Assembly (NCBI GenBank): GCA_017441125.1 | Contig: JAFSAH010000023.1 | Location: forward strand, 1 to 39,830 | From: Clostridia bacterium | GTDB lineage: Bacteria > Bacillota > Clostridia > Oscillospirales > UBA644 | Direction of reading: 5' to 3' | DNA length: 39,830 nt | In this document: piece after piece, positions 20,664 through 29,455 of the stretch | How positions within the stretch are numbered: position 1 is the stretch's first letter | Layout of the letters: the number at the start of each line of letters is the position of its first letter | Made by a program: the position numbers and the translations under genes | The notes under the pieces: model-generated | Database searches by the model: none | Seen by the model: the letters and a program-made list of their open reading frames with translations, nothing else | Told to the model about the DNA's origin: nothing

Positions 20664-20695
20664 AAAGTGTAATATTATGAATGAGAGGTTTTTTT
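20642..20695 (+). promoter_or_regulatory. two-part hairpin enclosing the RBS, with U-tract
   Basis: Outer stem AAACCTCTC (20642-20650) / GAGAGGTTT (20683-20691) and inner stem CATAATAT / ATATTATG (20655-20662 / 20672-20679), both perfect, then T up to 20695 and the start ATG at 20696. The GAGAGG ribosome binding site is in the 3' arm. It could be a terminator for read-through from ytfJ, or a switch that hides the ribosome binding site. Confidence 0.7.
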
Positions 20696-21973
20696 ATGCC
20701 ATTATTAAAAATCGGTTCAAGAGGAATTTACGTTCAGCTCTTGCAAAGCACTTTAAACAAATTAGGCTATGGCGCGGGAACGGTTGACGGGATTTTCGGA
20801 ACACGCACTGAAAACGCCGTAAAGCGTTTCCAGAGGTCTGTGGGTATTACCGTAGACGGGGTCGTGGGAAAAAACACGTGGAATGCGCTCATGCCCTATA
20901 TTGACGGCTATATAAATTATACCGTCAAAAGCGGCGATACCTTTTGGAAGCTTGCGCAAACCTTCGGAACTTCCGTAAATGCCATAATCGCCGCAAATCC
21001 CAATGTTGACCCTAATAATTTGCAGGTCGGCTCGGAAATTATAATCCCTATAGGAAATGCGGTTGTTCCTACGGACATCAGTTATTCATACGATATCATG
21101 ATGTCAAACATTAACAGCCTTAAGCGGAGATATCCGTTTTTGAAAGTCTCAACTATCGGCAAAAGTGTCAGCGGAAAGGATATACCCGTTGTTGTAATCG
21201 GTAGCGGTTCAAAAAAGGTCTGCTACAACGCGTCCCACCATGCAAATGAATGGATTACGTCTGTTTTGCTTATGAAATTTATTGAGAATTTCTGCCGAAG
21301 CTATATCGACGACGGAATTCTTGCGGGACAGAGCACGAGAAAGCTTTTTGAAAACTCTTCTATACACATTGTGCCGATGGTTAACCCCGACGGTGTTGAC
21401 CTTGTGACGGGAGCATTATCTCCCGATTCCCAGGAATACAGAAATGCGGAAAATCTTTCTCGAGGTTCGGGTCTTCCTTTTCCTTCGGGCTGGAAAGCAA
21501 ACATTCGAGGCGTTGACTTGAATTTGAATTACCCTGCCGAATGGGATGAGGCGAGACGAATAAAATTCGAGCAAGGCTTTACGAAGCCCGGCCCGAGAGA
21601 TTACGTTGGACCGTCTCCCTTTTCCGAGCCTGAAAGCCGCGCTATGGGCGAATATACCCGAAATAACGATTTTGCCTTGACGCTGGCATATCATACTCAA
21701 GGTGAGATCATTTTCTGGAAATTCCTCAATTATAACGTGCCCGGTGCATATGATATAGCCTTGAGGTTCTCCGAAGTCAGTGGTTATTCCCCAGAGATCA
21801 CTCCCATAAATTCAGGCTATGCCGGTTATAAAGATTGGTTTATTCAGGATTTCGGTAAGCCCGGCTATACGATTGAGGCGGGCAGAGGTTCAAATCCGTT
21901 ACCCATATCTCAATTTCCGGAGATATACAAAGACAATATCGGTATTTTAATGTTGGGCGCCGTTTTGGCGTGA
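20696..21973 (+). CDS. PG-binding/LysM M14C peptidase (endopeptidase I-like)
   Basis: Cell-wall peptidase of 425 residues of the gamma-D-glutamyl-meso-diaminopimelate peptidase I type. Order: peptidoglycan-binding domain 1 (1-70; LLQSTLNKLGYGAGTVDGIFG), LysM (about 78-121; YTVKSGDTFWKLAQTFGT), then M14 zinc carboxypeptidase. Zinc ligands are HANE in ASHHANEWITS and the His of AYHTQGE; the catalytic Glu is in YTIEAGRG. The canonical DLNRNFP is DLNLNYP, lacking the Arg, as is usual in the M14C subgroup that does not need a free C-terminal carboxylate in the ordinary way. No signal peptide, like the spore enzyme ENP1 of Lysinibacillus sphaericus. ATG 20696 was chosen because GAGAGG precedes it; ATG 20681 lies before that site. 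Confidence 0.9.
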   Translation: MPLLKIGSRGIYVQLLQSTLNKLGYGAGTVDGIFGTRTENAVKRFQRSVGITVDGVVGKNTWNALMPYIDGYINYTVKSGDTFWKLAQTFGTSVNAIIAANPNVDPNNLQVGSEIIIPIGNAVVPTDISYSYDIMMSNINSLKRRYPFLKVSTIGKSVSGKDIPVVVIGSGSKKVCYNASHHANEWITSVLLMKFIENFCRSYIDDGILAGQSTRKLFENSSIHIVPMVNPDGVDLVTGALSPDSQEYRNAENLSRGSGLPFPSGWKANIRGVDLNLNYPAEWDEARRIKFEQGFTKPGPRDYVGPSPFSEPESRAMGEYTRNNDFALTLAYHTQGEIIFWKFLNYNVPGAYDIALRFSEVSGYSPEITPINSGYAGYKDWFIQDFGKPGYTIEAGRGSNPLPISQFPEIYKDNIGILMLGAVLA

Positions 21974-23727: not shown

Positions 23728-23756
23728 TTGCAAATATCTGCATTATATGCTACAAT
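23728..23756 (+). promoter_or_regulatory. promoter of the THF riboswitch-folT unit
   Basis: TTGCAA (23728-23733), 17-base spacer, TACAAT (23751-23756) with TGC before it. Start near 23763, just before the riboswitch. The symporter and folT promoters thus lie back to back in the 459-base gap between the two genes. Confidence 0.75.
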
Positions 23757-23775: not shown

Positions 23776-23886
23776 ACAACAGAGTAGACATTACGCGCTG
23801 CGGGTTTCCGCTTAGTGCCGTGGGATGGGAAGTCGCCCTCGGACGAATAACTTCGGTTTGCGATGTAATGTTGCGTCCGCTGTTCG
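23776..23886 (+). ncRNA. tetrahydrofolate (THF) riboswitch aptamer
   Basis: The sequence follows the folT-type THF riboswitch: AGAGTAGA at the 5' side, GCG, TGGGATG in the middle, GACGAA, then GCGATGTAATGTTGC and GTCCGCTGT at the 3' side. P1 forms from AACAG (23778-23782) and CTGTT (23880-23884), P2 from ACATTAC and GTAATGT. The conserved blocks match the published Eubacterium siraeum folT aptamer in order and spacing. It should sense reduced folates and lower expression of the transporter encoded downstream, through the terminator at 23953. Confidence 0.92.
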
Positions 23887-23952
23887 TTTAATTTATTCGG
23901 ATGACGGTTTGGGATTTTCTTGAACCGTTAGTCAAATTTATTTCGTACGGCT

Positions 23953-23981
23953 GCTCTGATTTTATTTCAGAGCGTTTTTTT
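23953..23981 (+). terminator. riboswitch-controlled intrinsic terminator
   Basis: GCTCTGA / TCAGAGC with loop TTTTATT, then G and seven T. It lies between aptamer and folT, as expected for an OFF switch. The hairpin ACGGTT…AACCGT between aptamer and terminator may be part of the linker or of an alternative fold. Confidence 0.88.
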
Positions 23982-24017
23982 ATGAACGCTTGGATTTAAG
24001 AAGGAGAAAACAGTACA

Positions 24018-25106
24018 ATGAAACAAAAGAAAAACATCAGAGGTCACGTTAAGACTGTTGCCGTTTGCGCGATCCTTGCGGTAATAGGCTTTGTCCTCGA
24101 CAGATTTGTGGGTATCAGCATTCCTCTTTTCGGGGTAACAAGCTTGATGATCAACGTCAGCTATATTCCGATTTTTTTGGCGGGCATCCTTTACGGTCCT
24201 GTTTGGGGCGCTCTCGTTGGCGGAGTGCAGGATATTCTTTGCATGATACTTGTTCCTTTGGGGGCTCCCATTTGGGGCATTACAGCCACGACAATGCTTG
24301 CAGGCGCAATGGCGGGCGTCTTCGGCAGATTTATCCTTAAGATAAAGGCGGAAAATCGCGGAGAATTACTCGTTCCCGTAGCAAAAGATTCGCCCAAAAA
24401 CAAATTTTATTATATATTTGCCTCTTTTGCCGTGCTTCTTTACGGACTTGAAATCTTTACTTCCGCAACGAGCATTACGGTCGGAGAAACTGTCCATGAC
24501 TTGTCCATGTGGGATATTTTAACAAGGTCTTCCGCATATAAAAATGCCTTTTTGGAGATAACATCTCTTTATAATCCTGAAAATCTTCCGGAGGTATTTT
24601 ATGCATGGAGCGGACTTGCCGATACTTTCGGTATGATATCCGCGCTGTTTGTTCTTGCGTTGCCCTTGCTTATTCTTGCGGTATTTTTCAGTCATAAGCG
24701 TAAAAACGTTTTGGCTATAATCTCAATTTTGGCTTCATTTGTCTTTTCGGGCGTAGCGGTCGTATCTTTGATGCTTCAGATCCCCAAGAGCCTGAAGGAC
24801 CTTCCCGTAGAAATCCGGTTTGGTTTAGCGCCTTTTATTGCCTTGACAATTTGCGCTTTGGCTATTATTTTCGTGCTTATTGAGACGGATCCCCTTAAGT
24901 TCAAAATATCCGCTTTCTGTGCGATCACTGCAATTACAACCTCTGTTCTGAACTCATTCTGGTTGAGTCTTGCAATGTCAAGTGTGGGCTTCGTGGCATA
25001 TCTTCTTCCCCGACTTGCTACGGCAGTACTTTTGACCACACCTCTTTATTCTTTCTTGCTTTACTATTTGCTCGTAAAGGCAAAATGGCTCAAAAAAATG
25101 GTTTAA
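24018..25106 (+). CDS. FolT-like ECF transporter S component with large internal insertion
   Basis: Membrane protein of 362 residues. Residues 1-108 are a good folate-ECF S component: AVCAILAVIGFVLDRF, VSYIPIFLAGILYGPVWGALVGGVQDILC and IWGITATTMLAGAMAGVFGRFIL. The closing part (about 308-360) is also typical: NSFWLSLAMSSVGFVAYLLPRLATAVL. Normal FolT is about 170-180 residues; here about 200 residues with four extra hydrophobic segments (from FYYIFASFAVLLYGLEIF through FGLAPFIALTICALAII) lie between these halves. The THF riboswitch upstream supports folate uptake. It would work with the shared EcfAA'T module, not in this window. RBS AAGGAG. The reading frame is open throughout, so it is not a frameshift artefact. 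Confidence 0.85.
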   Translation: MKQKKNIRGHVKTVAVCAILAVIGFVLDRFVGISIPLFGVTSLMINVSYIPIFLAGILYGPVWGALVGGVQDILCMILVPLGAPIWGITATTMLAGAMAGVFGRFILKIKAENRGELLVPVAKDSPKNKFYYIFASFAVLLYGLEIFTSATSITVGETVHDLSMWDILTRSSAYKNAFLEITSLYNPENLPEVFYAWSGLADTFGMISALFVLALPLLILAVFFSHKRKNVLAIISILASFVFSGVAVVSLMLQIPKSLKDLPVEIRFGLAPFIALTICALAIIFVLIETDPLKFKISAFCAITAITTSVLNSFWLSLAMSSVGFVAYLLPRLATAVLLTTPLYSFLLYYLLVKAKWLKKMV

Positions 25107-25135: not shown

Positions 25136-25176
25136 AAAAAGTACTATCGAGAAATAAAATCTCGGTAGTACTTTTT
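25136..25176. terminator. bidirectional terminator between folT and the GHL10 lipoprotein gene
   Basis: AAAAAGTACTATCGAGA (25136-25152) pairs with 25160-25176 over 17 positions (one G-U), loop AATAAAA, with T/A tracts on both sides. It serves both convergent genes. Confidence 0.9.
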
Positions 25177-25186
25177 AATTTTTTAT

Positions 25187-28100
25187 TTAGCTTTGGAGTC
25201 TGTAGTACTCTACGATTCCGTCAACGATTGCTTGTGCTGCCTTTTCTTTGTTTTCATCGTAAGTAAACCATTCGTATTCTTCGATGTTGCTTATGAATGC
25301 GGTCTCAAAGAGTATTGACGGGAAATCCACAAAGCGGGAAACCTTATAGTATCCGCCTTTGTGACCTCTGTTATAGAAGCCCGTCTCGTTGCAGAATGTA
25401 TCCAAAACGGTTTTTGCTAAAAGCTTACTGCTGCTGTAGGAGTAATAAGCCTCCGAGCCCTTTGCCGTTGCAGGGTTTGTATCGTCGGGAACGTAATTAT
25501 AGTGAATCGAAATATTCATATCAGGCTCCCAAGCCCTGTACATCTCAATAATGGGGTCAAGGTCAAATATCTGCTCTCTGTTGTGCGTCATATATGTGGT
25601 GGCGCCCAAGGCCTGAAGCTTTTCGTTTACTAACAGCGCAATTTCGTAGTTCCAATCCGCTTCCGTCCACTTGGTGGTTCCCCAAGGACCGACAGCTCCG
25701 CCGTTAAGGCTGTGTCCCGGATCAATGGAGATTTTGATTCCCGCCAAGGGCTGACTGCCCTCTTTCAAGGAAATGGGGTTTTTAAAGCTGATTACGAGAA
25801 GTCCGTTTTTAAATTCAGGCTTGTATCCGAAAATATGCATCGATTTTTTATGTGTCAGAGTTACGGTTATTGTAGAACCGTTCTTTTGATAGGAAGCACT
25901 TGAGAACAGCGGGTTTTCCTCAATGGTAAGTGTTTCGGGGAACATTCCCACATTATACAAAACGATCTCCGTTCTGTCGTCAAACATCCGTATTCTATGG
26001 ATCGTCTGGGCGCTCATGAGGAAAGAGATCTCGGTATATTTTCCGTCAGAAGACTGTGATGTCATCATTACGGGAACTATGACTTCCGTAAGCGTTCCCT
26101 CAATTTTTTCAACGTTGCTGTTGGCAATAAAGTTTCCGCTTTTGAGCTTTGTATTTCCGCCCCATTTTGCAACGACTCCGTCAATGGAGCCTGCTGTGGC
26201 AGAGTAATATTCATCGGGGTCGTCGTCCAATGAGCCCATGAGGTCGCAAAGATTTTTGGTTACCTGTACCACGTAGCTGTCAGGGTCGTTTATTGCCTCA
26301 ACGACGTTGTCAAGCTGCACGATAACCGTGTTCTGACCTGCTTTTTCGGCGTAGAAGGTAACTCCTCCTATGGTGGCGTTGCCTTCCACCTCAGGCATTA
26401 CAAAGGTTCCTGAATAGTAGGCTTTTTTGAATGTGCCGTCAGTCGAATCAGCCGTTGAAGAGTAAAGCTGTACGGTATAATCGCCGATTTTCGCATAGAC
26501 CTTTGCGCCTGCCGTAGCGGTGCATGAAACGGTAAGCTTCGAGCCGGAAACATTAGCGTAGTCGTTAAGAGGTGAAAACGAATCTTTTACAAATCCGAAC
26601 TCCGACATCGTTGTCGATGAAGAGGATTTTTCCGCGCGTGTTACCGTAAAGGTTTTAACACTGTTGTTTTGAGTTATAGTATATACGTTTTCGCCCACCT
26701 TCAGCCCTTTTATATAATAGCTGAAATATCCCTTGGAGGTTCTGTCTGTGACCTCCACACCGTTTACGTAAATCGGATAATTAGGATCGGCAACACCGAG
26801 TATAAAGTGGTTTTCCGTATCATTGCTTACTGTATAGGATGAAAATGCAATTACAAGCTCTGTGGAGTCTCCCACGACGGGCTCGGAAGGCCCTGTCGGC
26901 TCGTAGGTTGAGGTTGAACCGTCTCCGTATTTTTCCGTAACGGTGGTCTTTACTCCCGCCGTATTATTTTTAAGATTCTTATATGAGAAGAAAACAGCCC
27001 CGTCTACGTATTGCATTTTATCAAGATATTCAAGCTGGGATTTGATTTCTGCAGGGTCCTTATATGCGGTCGCGGCTTCTCCTCTGTATGCGGCAATTCC
27101 TATATAAAGGTCCACGTCAACGTTTGCCACAAGCTCGTTCCACCAATCTACTATTGGCTTAAACGGAGCAGTTGAGTGGTTTATTTCCCAATATACTTGC
27201 GGACAAATATAATCTATCCATTCGTTCAGAACCCACTTGCGGGTGTCTGCGTATACCTGATAATAGGATTCCATAGAGCTCTTTATATCTGTTCCGTTCG
27301 GATTATTGGATTTCAGCGCCCATACGCCGCAGGGGCTTATGCCAAACTTCAAGTCAGACCTTACGGCTCTGATCGTGGAGGTTACCTGAAGAATCAATAA
27401 GTCAGTATTGCTTCTGCGCCAATCTGCAAGGCTTTGTCCGTCCTGCTTGTATTTATTATAGGTTTCGCTGTCGTTAAAATTCAGTCTGTCTTCGTCGGGA
27501 TAGAAATAGTCGTCGAAATGAATACCGTCAATGTTGTAATTGTTTACTATTTCCATAATACCGTCAACTATTAACTGTCTTACCTCCGGAATTCCCGGAT
27601 TAAAGTACATAGCTCCGTCTGTATGCTTTACTACCCATTCGGGATGAAGTCTTGCAGGATGATCCTCCGCAAGCTTATCCAAATTTGTTCCGTAAGTTCC
27701 CGGCTGTGAAATTCGGTACGGGTTTATCCACGCATGAAGCTCAATATTTTCCGCATGGGCTGCTTCAATGAAATATTCCAAGCAGTCAAGAGGCAGTTCG
27801 TCTCCCTGCTTCAGTACCACATGGGCAGATGAGGGGAATATATCCGATTCGTACAAGGCGTCTGCTTCGGGACGGACCTGGAAGAAGATAGCGTTTATTC
27901 CCATTGCTTTGCAATCAGCAACTATGGCGTCGATTTCTGCTTTCAATTCGTCCGCAGAAAGTCCGGGCTTTGAGGGGAAATCGATATTTCCTACAGTTGC
28001 TACCCAAGCGCCCACCAAATCGCCTTCATGTGTTACCGTTTCACCTGAAATTGCGTAAGATTCCAGGTCAACGTTGACGTAGAATATTTGTACGGCAGTG

Positions 28101-29455
28101 CCTTCTTTGGATTTTACTGTAATGAACGCAATTCCGTCTCCGACAGCCTTAACGACCCCGTTTTTGTCCACAGTTGCGATTTTCGGGTCGTCTGTTTCAA
28201 AGGTACATTCCTTATTTACCGCGTCTGACGGGTATATAATGGGCTGGATTGCAAATGTCTCGCCCTTTTTGGTTAAAGTGCAGGAATATTTTTCAAAGGT
28301 TATGCTTTCGGGCTTTGGCGGCTCTATGGCTACGGCAACCTTAACTACGGCCCTGTAGCCGTTGTCTTTTGTCGTTGCTACGATCACGCCTTCGCCGTTT
28401 TCAACAACCTTTATTGTTCCGTCTTCGGAAACCTCCACGACAGAAGGAGTTAAGCTTTCAAAAATTACGCCCTTTTCCGTTGCATTTGCAGGGGAAACTG
28501 TGGCGGTAAGCTTGTATTCCTCGTCTTTCTTTGTGAATTTCAGTTCGGAAACATCCAAAGAAATACCCGTGCAGGGTATGGGAAAATCTACAGTAACCGT
28601 ACATACGGCATTTTTCAAGCCGTTATCCGTAACTGCTTTTATGACAGTCGTTCCGTTTTTCAAGGCAGTTACCACGCCTGTGACCTCATCAACTGTTGCA
28701 ACGGACGGGTCGGAGCTTGACCATGTGAGACCTCGCTCCGTTGTGTCTATGGGTTCCCATACAGGAGTAAGAACAAGAACGTCGGAGTCCTTCTTAAAAG
28801 TGAAAGAAGAGATATCAAAGTTTACGTCTTCCATCGGTACGACCGTATTTACCGCCACGTTACAGCTTGCGGAGAAGCCTCCGTCCTCTGTCGTTACGGT
28901 TATTGTCGTCTGACCGTCTCCTGCCAAAGTCACGTTTCCGTTTTCGTCAACGATTGCGACTGCAGGATTGCTTGTGCTCCAAACTACGTTTTTGTTTGTA
29001 GCATTCAGGGGCAGAATTGTATAAAACAGTTGCGCGGTATCTTCAAGATCTTCAAAACTTAATTGATTTGTATTCATGACTATGCCGCCAACGGGGTATA
29101 TAAGACCTACCTGTATCTCACATCCCGCAACAACGGAACCGTCCGCAGACCTTGCCGTTATGAGAGCTTGTCCGTCATTTACGGGACGCACTGTTCCCAT
29201 TGCATCAACTGTTGCAACGGCGGGGTCACTTGAACTCCAAAATACAGTCTTGTCCGTTGCGTTTAAGGGGTACACGACCGCATTGAGTTGTAGATAGTCA
29301 TGTTCGTCAGTGAAGAAATATTCGGTTATGTTGAGGGTTACAGAGCTGACTTCAACGCTCTTTACTTCCGTTTCGGAAGGAGCGCATGATACCAAAGAAA
29401 ATAACATTGTAATCATAAGCAGAGCCAAAAGCGCTCTGTGAAATTTTCCTGTCAT
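25187..29455 (-). CDS. 1422-aa lipoprotein: five Big2 repeats, GHL10 domain, amidase_3
   Basis: Large surface lipoprotein. Signal LLMITMLFSLVSC gives lipobox LVSC. Then five bacterial Ig-like (Big_2) repeats of about 80 residues (about 36-460), each with a WSSSDPAVATVD-like core and a D/NG turn. A GHL10 (DUF187, YngK-like) TIM barrel follows at about 478-820 (MGINAIFFQVRPEADALY, HAWINPYR, GIHFDDYFYP). Next comes a beta-rich linker of about 400 residues, and finally an N-acetylmuramoyl-L-alanine amidase_3 domain (about 1238-1421). The amidase zinc/catalytic set is complete: His1248 in DPGH, Glu1265, His1318 in SIHY, Glu1384 in LFETAF. It probably cleaves peptidoglycan or a related wall polymer at the outer membrane face. 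The Big repeats may hold it in the wall. It is preceded by the CofE-like gene (29 bases). Confidence 0.9.
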   Translation of the reverse strand: MTGKFHRALLALLMITMLFSLVSCAPSETEVKSVEVSSVTLNITEYFFTDEHDYLQLNAVVYPLNATDKTVFWSSSDPAVATVDAMGTVRPVNDGQALITARSADGSVVAGCEIQVGLIYPVGGIVMNTNQLSFEDLEDTAQLFYTILPLNATNKNVVWSTSNPAVAIVDENGNVTLAGDGQTTITVTTEDGGFSASCNVAVNTVVPMEDVNFDISSFTFKKDSDVLVLTPVWEPIDTTERGLTWSSSDPSVATVDEVTGVVTALKNGTTVIKAVTDNGLKNAVCTVTVDFPIPCTGISLDVSELKFTKKDEEYKLTATVSPANATEKGVIFESLTPSVVEVSEDGTIKVVENGEGVIVATTKDNGYRAVVKVAVAIEPPKPESITFEKYSCTLTKKGETFAIQPIIYPSDAVNKECTFETDDPKIATVDKNGVVKAVGDGIAFITVKSKEGTAVQIFYVNVDLESYAISGETVTHEGDLVGAWVATVGNIDFPSKPGLSADELKAEIDAIVADCKAMGINAIFFQVRPEADALYESDIFPSSAHVVLKQGDELPLDCLEYFIEAAHAENIELHAWINPYRISQPGTYGTNLDKLAEDHPARLHPEWVVKHTDGAMYFNPGIPEVRQLIVDGIMEIVNNYNIDGIHFDDYFYPDEDRLNFNDSETYNKYKQDGQSLADWRRSNTDLLILQVTSTIRAVRSDLKFGISPCGVWALKSNNPNGTDIKSSMESYYQVYADTRKWVLNEWIDYICPQVYWEINHSTAPFKPIVDWWNELVANVDVDLYIGIAAYRGEAATAYKDPAEIKSQLEYLDKMQYVDGAVFFSYKNLKNNTAGVKTTVTEKYGDGSTSTYEPTGPSEPVVGDSTELVIAFSSYTVSNDTENHFILGVADPNYPIYVNGVEVTDRTSKGYFSYYIKGLKVGENVYTITQNNSVKTFTVTRAEKSSSSTTMSEFGFVKDSFSPLNDYANVSGSKLTVSCTATAGAKVYAKIGDYTVQLYSSTADSTDGTFKKAYYSGTFVMPEVEGNATIGGVTFYAEKAGQNTVIVQLDNVVEAINDPDSYVVQVTKNLCDLMGSLDDDPDEYYSATAGSIDGVVAKWGGNTKLKSGNFIANSNVEKIEGTLTEVIVPVMMTSQSSDGKYTEISFLMSAQTIHRIRMFDDRTEIVLYNVGMFPETLTIEENPLFSSASYQKNGSTITVTLTHKKSMHIFGYKPEFKNGLLVISFKNPISLKEGSQPLAGIKISIDPGHSLNGGAVGPWGTTKWTEADWNYEIALLVNEKLQALGATTYMTHNREQIFDLDPIIEMYRAWEPDMNISIHYNYVPDDTNPATAKGSEAYYSYSSSKLLAKTVLDTFCNETGFYNRGHKGGYYKVSRFVDFPSILFETAFISNIEEYEWFTYDENKEKAAQAIVDGIVEYYRLQS

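Follow-up and report, generated by a model that had tools for sequence, protein, structure and literature searches.

The window analysed here is a stretch of 39,830 nucleotides from a Clostridia bacterium, in which a folT-like gene lies on the forward strand at positions 24018-25106, starting with ATG and encoding 362 amino acids with 10 predicted membrane helices. A ribosome-binding site (AAGGAG, 24001-24006, +) was recognised in the sequence 11 bases 5' of the ATG. Further upstream, at 23778-23884 (+), lies a tetrahydrofolate (THF) riboswitch aptamer (RF01831, 60.4 bits against a gathering threshold of 36), where the initial annotation had also placed such an element ahead of the gene; it is the sole match in the whole window at gathering thresholds. 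A consensus scan returned a promoter-like site at 23728-23756 (+; TTGCAA and TACAAT separated by 17 nt, with TG before the second hexamer; 9/12), promoter-like sites in the region being not clearly above shuffles (5 observed, 2.8 expected). Between aptamer and gene, a terminator-like hairpin (23952-23982, +) with an 8-pair stem and a loop of 7, followed by TTTTTTT, is a candidate expression platform, possibly working by transcription attenuation; this role is suggested by position only, because terminator-like sites in the region do not outnumber those in shuffles (2 observed, 2.5 in shuffles). Another terminator-like hairpin, with a 17-pair stem, lies 3' of the gene (25136-25176, +). The flanking genes are on the opposite strand on both sides and belong to other families: one encodes a sodium:solute symporter, and the other (25187-29455, −) a protein of 1422 residues with five Big_2 repeats, a GHL10 domain and a C-terminal Amidase_3 domain. 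Elsewhere in the window (20681-21973, +), a gene for a zinc carboxypeptidase M14 with peptidoglycan-binding and LysM domains adjoins Spore_YtfJ and DUF2953 genes.

The NCBIfam model for folate family S components (TIGR04518) gave a single match to the protein, over residues 10-354, and barely above the cut-off (60.5 bits against 60, values available for the window protein alone among the genus members); the same model matches 9/9 genus members, with a best E-value of 1.4e-19. In Pfam, the S-component match of the window protein covers the N-terminal part only, and 5TMR-LYT (PF07694) matches residues 6-108 only (26.2 bits, cut-off 24.6); a signalling domain, as attached to 5TMR-LYT, was absent from the Pfam and NCBIfam matches of this protein. 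A sequence search of the PDB retrieved E. faecalis FolT, with the N half at an E-value of 2.6e-6 and a further, weak stretch corresponding to the C half. The AlphaFold2 model of the whole protein (pLDDT 72, pTM 0.60, from 9 sequences) contains the six-helix S-component fold, with pLDDT below 50 in the L1 loop (30-40) and in a linker (117-126). When this model was compared with known structures, the top 16 rows were S components, all aligned across the intervening insert; folate-bound FolT (5d0y_A) was superposed over 153 of 155 residues within the range 8-355 (Z 18.3, 2.1 Å). Because TIGR04518 spans both halves and S-component structures align across the insert, the C-terminal match to FolT holds, and the two halves are predicted to form one S-component fold. 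This bears out the similarity to FolT that had been noted at both ends of the protein; failure of the C-terminal match in profile comparison, which had been named as the finding that would speak against it, did not occur.

In an alignment with uninserted FolT proteins from two sister genera in its family, the insert covers residues 119-299 (181 residues; 24372-24914, +), in the loop between helices 4 and 5, which is on the cytoplasmic side by topology. The FolT core is split into helices 1-4 with the start of the linker (residues 1-118; 24018-24371, +), assigned from TIGR04518, Pfam ECF matches and the structural alignment, and helices 5-6 (residues 300-362; 24915-25103, +), assigned from TIGR04518, the structural alignment and the uninserted relatives. 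The initial annotation was right about the insertion itself, and its boundaries (109-305) were slightly wide. It had also counted four further hydrophobic segments, which are recovered as helices 129-146, 187-226, 230-259 and 271-290 of the model. About 22 residues (107-128), flexible in the model, link helix 4 to the insert, and on the other side the insert passes into helix 5 by an almost direct helix-to-helix join at residue 291.

Structure prediction of the whole protein and of the insert alone, both of which had been suggested at the outset, gave an S-component core and a separate four-helix domain, in models that rest on 9 sequences only. Predicted alone, the insert was modelled more confidently than in the whole-protein context (pLDDT 81.4, pTM 0.75), most of its core ten-residue blocks having a pLDDT near or above 90. 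Its elements follow the order TM-beta-beta-helix-TM-TM-beta-TM, with strands at E45-51 and E54-59 between helices 1 and 2 and at E160-164 between helices 3 and 4. In a Foldseek search with this model, the best match was TARP gamma-7 (9s41; E 3.6e-3, probability 1.00, TM 0.57/0.61), followed by DUOXA1, TARP gamma-2 and gamma-5, and claudin-15, with LetAB chain A and GARLH4 at lower ranks, and no E-value was at or below 0.001. VIA aligned 154 residues of the insert with TARP gamma-7 at 3.4 Å and Z 12.5, short of the value of about 13 below which the tool itself advises caution with helical bundles; 48 of its best 50 rows were TARP or AMPA-receptor entries, the other two being a designed claudin fold (11.1) and a designed four-helix protein (11.2). 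The whole-protein model gave the same kind of claudin/TARP match at about residues 124-291. Despite the caution-level Z, the predicted strands in both outer loops and the right order of elements tip the balance in favour of a claudin/TARP-like assignment.

The N-terminus, the C-terminus and the TMb-TMc loop of the insert are net positive in 8/8 members, and its large outer loop, which holds the invariant W165, L168, Y174 and F178, is net negative in 8/8, other loops being mixed. The first outer loop of claudins carries a W-LW-C-C motif. Among the genus members the insert has one invariant W and L and no invariant cysteine, and no Pfam claudin family was among the matches listed for nine insert sequences at E-values up to 10, a search in which the HMMER filters drop many weak matches. 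For these two reasons, the missing claudin match and the missing invariant cysteine, we call the predicted fold claudin/TARP-like and the insert not a claudin. A PDB profile search for the origin of the insert returned a single match, to an unrelated enzyme (E 1.6).

The inserted gene was found in 9/10 genomes of the genus, in one of them (G005) as two pieces on two contigs; the genome without a match (G003) is 61% complete. As nine genomes carry it, and the other members are 38-69% identical to the window protein, the insertion is not a product of chance or of assembly error. The RF01831 riboswitch precedes 9/9 inserted genes (the window and L002-L009). A scan of genome contigs with the window protein found one relative, L031. 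In the eight full proteins the insert is 180-182 residues long; 12 of its positions are invariant. Between the two subclades its identity is 15-23%, against 64-73% for the N core; for the window protein compared with the other subclade, the values are 18-23% for the insert, 64-73% for the N core and 46-53% for the C core. The dN/dS of the insert is 0.09-0.24 in the five computable pairs, against 0.03-0.08 for the N core, several dS values exceeding 1 and the pair of the window protein and its nearest relative being saturated for the insert. These ratios and the stable length argue that the insert is constrained: to judge from the sequences, it is evolving faster than the core, under a purifying selection looser than that on the core.

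Searched with a profile of the insert, 394 genomes of the order yielded the genus and two weak matches only (E 5e-4 and 0.0068); to judge by eye rather than by profile, these two are of other kinds, one resembling a CdsA-type enzyme and the other an ABC permease. Among 398 genomes of the phylum, a draw that contains one genome of the genus, the profile matched its own genome only. THF riboswitches occur in 284/394 order genomes, and TIGR04518 matches at E-values of 1e-5 or lower in 380/394, 306 of them over the cut-off. From the riboswitch places listed for the 394 genomes, 141 regions (L098-L238) were drawn, those of this genus being among the places left out, and a seed model found a FolT-like gene downstream of the riboswitch in 139 of them (misses: L118 and L193). 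In L193 (G375) the riboswitch is followed, instead of folT, by a gene without membrane helices that appears folE-like by eye (GTP cyclohydrolase I). We read by eye the 25 entries in which helix 4 is followed by the longest stretch, genus members and L015 included, which covers insertions of more than about 45 residues; in 4/139 the helix 4-5 loop contained additional membrane segments, all from family f19 (L145, the same as L015, and L195, L214 and L219). The same insertion, whose presence in other FolT proteins the initial annotation had proposed to look for, was met in the genus only among the genomes searched, f19 having a shorter and different one in the same loop.

The f19 proteins resemble those of the genus in the loop that is interrupted, in the THF riboswitch ahead of the gene and, in the one scanned (L015), in a TIGR04518 match over both halves; they differ in that their inserts consist of two helices and a larger outside part of varied size. 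The outside domain of L015/L145 looked BspA-like by eye, an assignment that we dropped, Pfam giving no LRR match. No profile similarity between f19 and genus inserts was detected (hhalign probability 2.5%, from few sequences). FolT proteins of two sister genera, L010 (G012) and L012 (G013), also stand behind THF riboswitches and are the nearest core relatives of the genus proteins, but have a loop of about 11 residues where the genus has the domain. In a careful tree of 79 cores, the genus groups with these two uninserted proteins (98/89), and f19 branches elsewhere (96/81). A common origin of the two kinds of insert is disfavoured by this tree and by the lack of profile similarity, so that two independent insertions at one site appear likely; they are not proven, because an AU test on a quick tree of 153 rows did not reject a single inserted clade (p 0.816) and favoured the constrained tree by 20 log units.

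Other architectures were seen among the riboswitch-linked genes. In L235 (152-1795; G332) FolT is fused to a Mur-ligase/FolC-like enzyme (Pfam Mur_ligase_M and Mur_ligase_C), and a fusion of the same kind was recognised by eye in L165 (G124), which suggests uptake coupled to polyglutamate trapping. Eight further FolT-like proteins (L124, L141, L144, L160, L170, L146, L147 and L205) have C-terminal extensions that, by eye, seem to add hydrophobic segments.

Neither folP nor folK was found in 20 genomes of family f1, to which the genus belongs (10 with a completeness of 90% or more; controls: 13/14 for folP and 11/14 for folK), and family f1 therefore probably depends on folate uptake, with the appearance of folate auxotrophs. 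These absences and the riboswitch point indirectly to folate as the substrate. They also agree, together with the riboswitch in 9/9 cases and the dN/dS of the insert, with the earlier view that the gene is functional, as it probably is. Among the listed matches, for which strict filters may lose weak ones, each of nine genus genomes has one THF riboswitch, ahead of the inserted gene. Nine residues contact folate in E. faecalis FolT (PMC4525288). Four of these (R26, D64, T81 and R142 in E. faecalis numbering) are kept in 8/8 genus members, and five differ (K36, F80, N117, T121 and K145), with Ile at the position of F80 and Ser or Met at that of K36; the lysines that hold the folate glutamate in the E. 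faecalis protein are absent. Across 141 other FolT proteins in the alignment, R26 is R in 20, F80 is I in 29, T121 is N in 72, its commonest state, and K145 is K in 67; position 36 is K or R in 108 and lost in the genus. In E. faecalis FolT, the F80A change abolishes binding and K36A greatly weakens it (PMC4525288). Since the genus has Ile and Ser/Met at these binding-critical positions, it is quite possible that the ligand is not folic acid itself and is instead a reduced or otherwise different folate.

CbiQ/EcfT was found in 8/10 genus genomes, including 5/5 of those at least 90% complete, and was not found in the window's own assembly (57% complete) or in G003 (61%). In one locus examined (L087), EcfT adjoins ATPase genes, one recognised by Pfam and the other by eye. 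The S-component docking motif is AxxxA in helix 1 (PMC4820897). Its two alanine positions are A18 and V22 in the window protein, and over eight members the first is A in seven and S in one, the second A in five, V in two and G in one. Three roles had been put forward for the insert in the initial annotation. A second substrate function found no support, and the evidence agrees best with an added partner, the predicted fold being that of TARPs, DUOXA1 and claudins. The third, replacement of the contact with the T component, fits poorly with EcfT kept in the genus and with the inner loops of the insert, which are all short. In its strongest form, this would make the protein a solitary transporter that works without the ECF module. 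Some S components, such as BioY, do transport alone, and the altered motif of the window protein would fit such a mode of action, but the second alanine is kept in 5/8 members, the insert has no part resembling coupling helices, and EcfT, present in every genus genome that is at least 90% complete, is kept beside ATPase genes in one locus, from which we conclude that the T component has not been replaced in the genus. We regard a solitary transporter as very unlikely.

Less remote, although still unlikely in our view, is an extracellular module that captures or attaches to cell wall, a binding protein or a form of folate through the outer beta layer and helices, with the four membrane helices as an anchor. 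The invariant aromatic and leucine residues W165, L168, Y174 and F178 are in the outer loop, the lysines for the folate glutamate are gone, and f19, also behind a THF riboswitch, has placed a varied outside domain on two helices at the same loop; yet the outer part amounts to only about 40 residues with no known ligand, and the retention of the four-helix fold itself would be needless in a mere anchor. The low identity of the insert between subclades (15-23%, against 64-73% for the N core), and a loop that has tolerated another insertion elsewhere, could instead be explained by a structurally tolerated, nearly neutral insertion without a role of its own. This appears improbable given its dN/dS of 0.09-0.24 in five pairs, its 12 invariant positions, its length of 180-182 residues in eight full proteins and its retention in 9/10 genomes.

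The likeliest reading, which we consider probable, is that the protein imports folate in dependence on the ECF module and that its claudin-like domain is a built-in accessory; the folate substrate, the docking partner, the accessory role and the hinge are what we infer. The THF riboswitch would repress the gene for FolT, the folate-specific S component of an ECF transporter, whose helices 1-4 and 5-6 would pack as an ordinary S-component fold and capture folate from outside. The core would then topple against the shared EcfA-A'-T module and release folate inside, in keeping with S components that work by toppling onto EcfT (PMC4820897, PMC10368641). The self-folding claudin/TARP-like domain would sit in the cytoplasmic helix 4-5 loop, with a layer of three beta strands and its short helices on the extracellular side, and would stay upright in the membrane beside the core, held by the flexible linker on one side and by the hinge at residue 291 on the other. 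Acting as an auxiliary subunit within the same chain, it could tune the stability, orientation or docking and toppling of the S component, either steadying or gating the toppling movement or presenting its outer face. According to the titles of structure entries, animal proteins of the claudin/TARP fold are partners of other membrane proteins (TARPs of AMPA receptors, DUOXA1 of DUOX1, GARLH4 of GABA-A receptors), and we prefer the auxiliary reading for this reason, a shared fold being no proof of a shared role. More speculatively, and with considerable doubt on our part, toppling of the FolT core may take place around the TMd-TM5 hinge with the domain remaining upright, which would give the protein a fixed reference or brake of its own for this movement.

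In the toppling model, the whole S component moves through the bilayer and tips over on docking to the ECF module. A second membrane domain tied to the cytoplasmic side would constrain this movement, since it must either tip too or stay upright as a hinge partner, and the toppling model thereby becomes directly testable in one natural protein. If the predicted fold is right, one best known from animal auxiliary subunits would lie inside a bacterial transporter, and FolT with a claudin-like domain could reveal how a partner within the same chain tunes a vitamin transporter. The helix 4-5 loop, which seems to have taken extra membrane segments twice, may also be a natural site for engineering or tagging S components.

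The initial annotation had allowed that the insert might be a normal variant of a described longer S-component family, and none was found in Pfam, NCBIfam or the open literature searched. In Pfam and NCBIfam scans of 9 members the core matched S-component models, together with weak matches to unrelated membrane proteins, and nothing convincing was obtained for the insert. The open literature searched held nothing relevant on S components with insertions or on claudin-like bacterial proteins, and a review of S components (PMC11109136) mentions neither claudin, tetraspan nor insertion; FolT with a claudin/TARP-like domain was likewise not found in these sources. The window protein agrees with known FolT (TIGR04518; 4z7f, 5d0y, 7nnt) in its whole-length profile match, the six-helix fold of its model, the THF riboswitch, the presence of EcfT in the genus and the retained contacts R26, D64, T81 and R142. 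It departs from them in the four-helix domain of 181 residues between helices 4 and 5, in the changes at K36, F80, N117, T121 and K145, and in a profile score just over the cut-off. With the claudin/TARP proteins (TARP gamma-7, 9s41; DUOXA1, 6wxr; claudin-15, 4p79; the designed 8oyv) the insert shares the predicted TM-beta-beta-helix-TM-TM-beta-TM order, but it lacks a sequence match and invariant cysteines, is bacterial, and is nested inside a transporter. In the 5TMR domains fused to NRAMP transporters, described as exceptional (PMC11109136), an S-component-type fold likewise shares one chain with another membrane domain; those are end-to-end fusions with a metal transporter, whereas here the second domain lies inside the S-component fold. 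Should the domain act as such a fixed reference or brake, this would make the protein a single-chain counterpart, in a bacterium, of AMPA receptors with their TARPs and of DUOX1 with DUOXA1.
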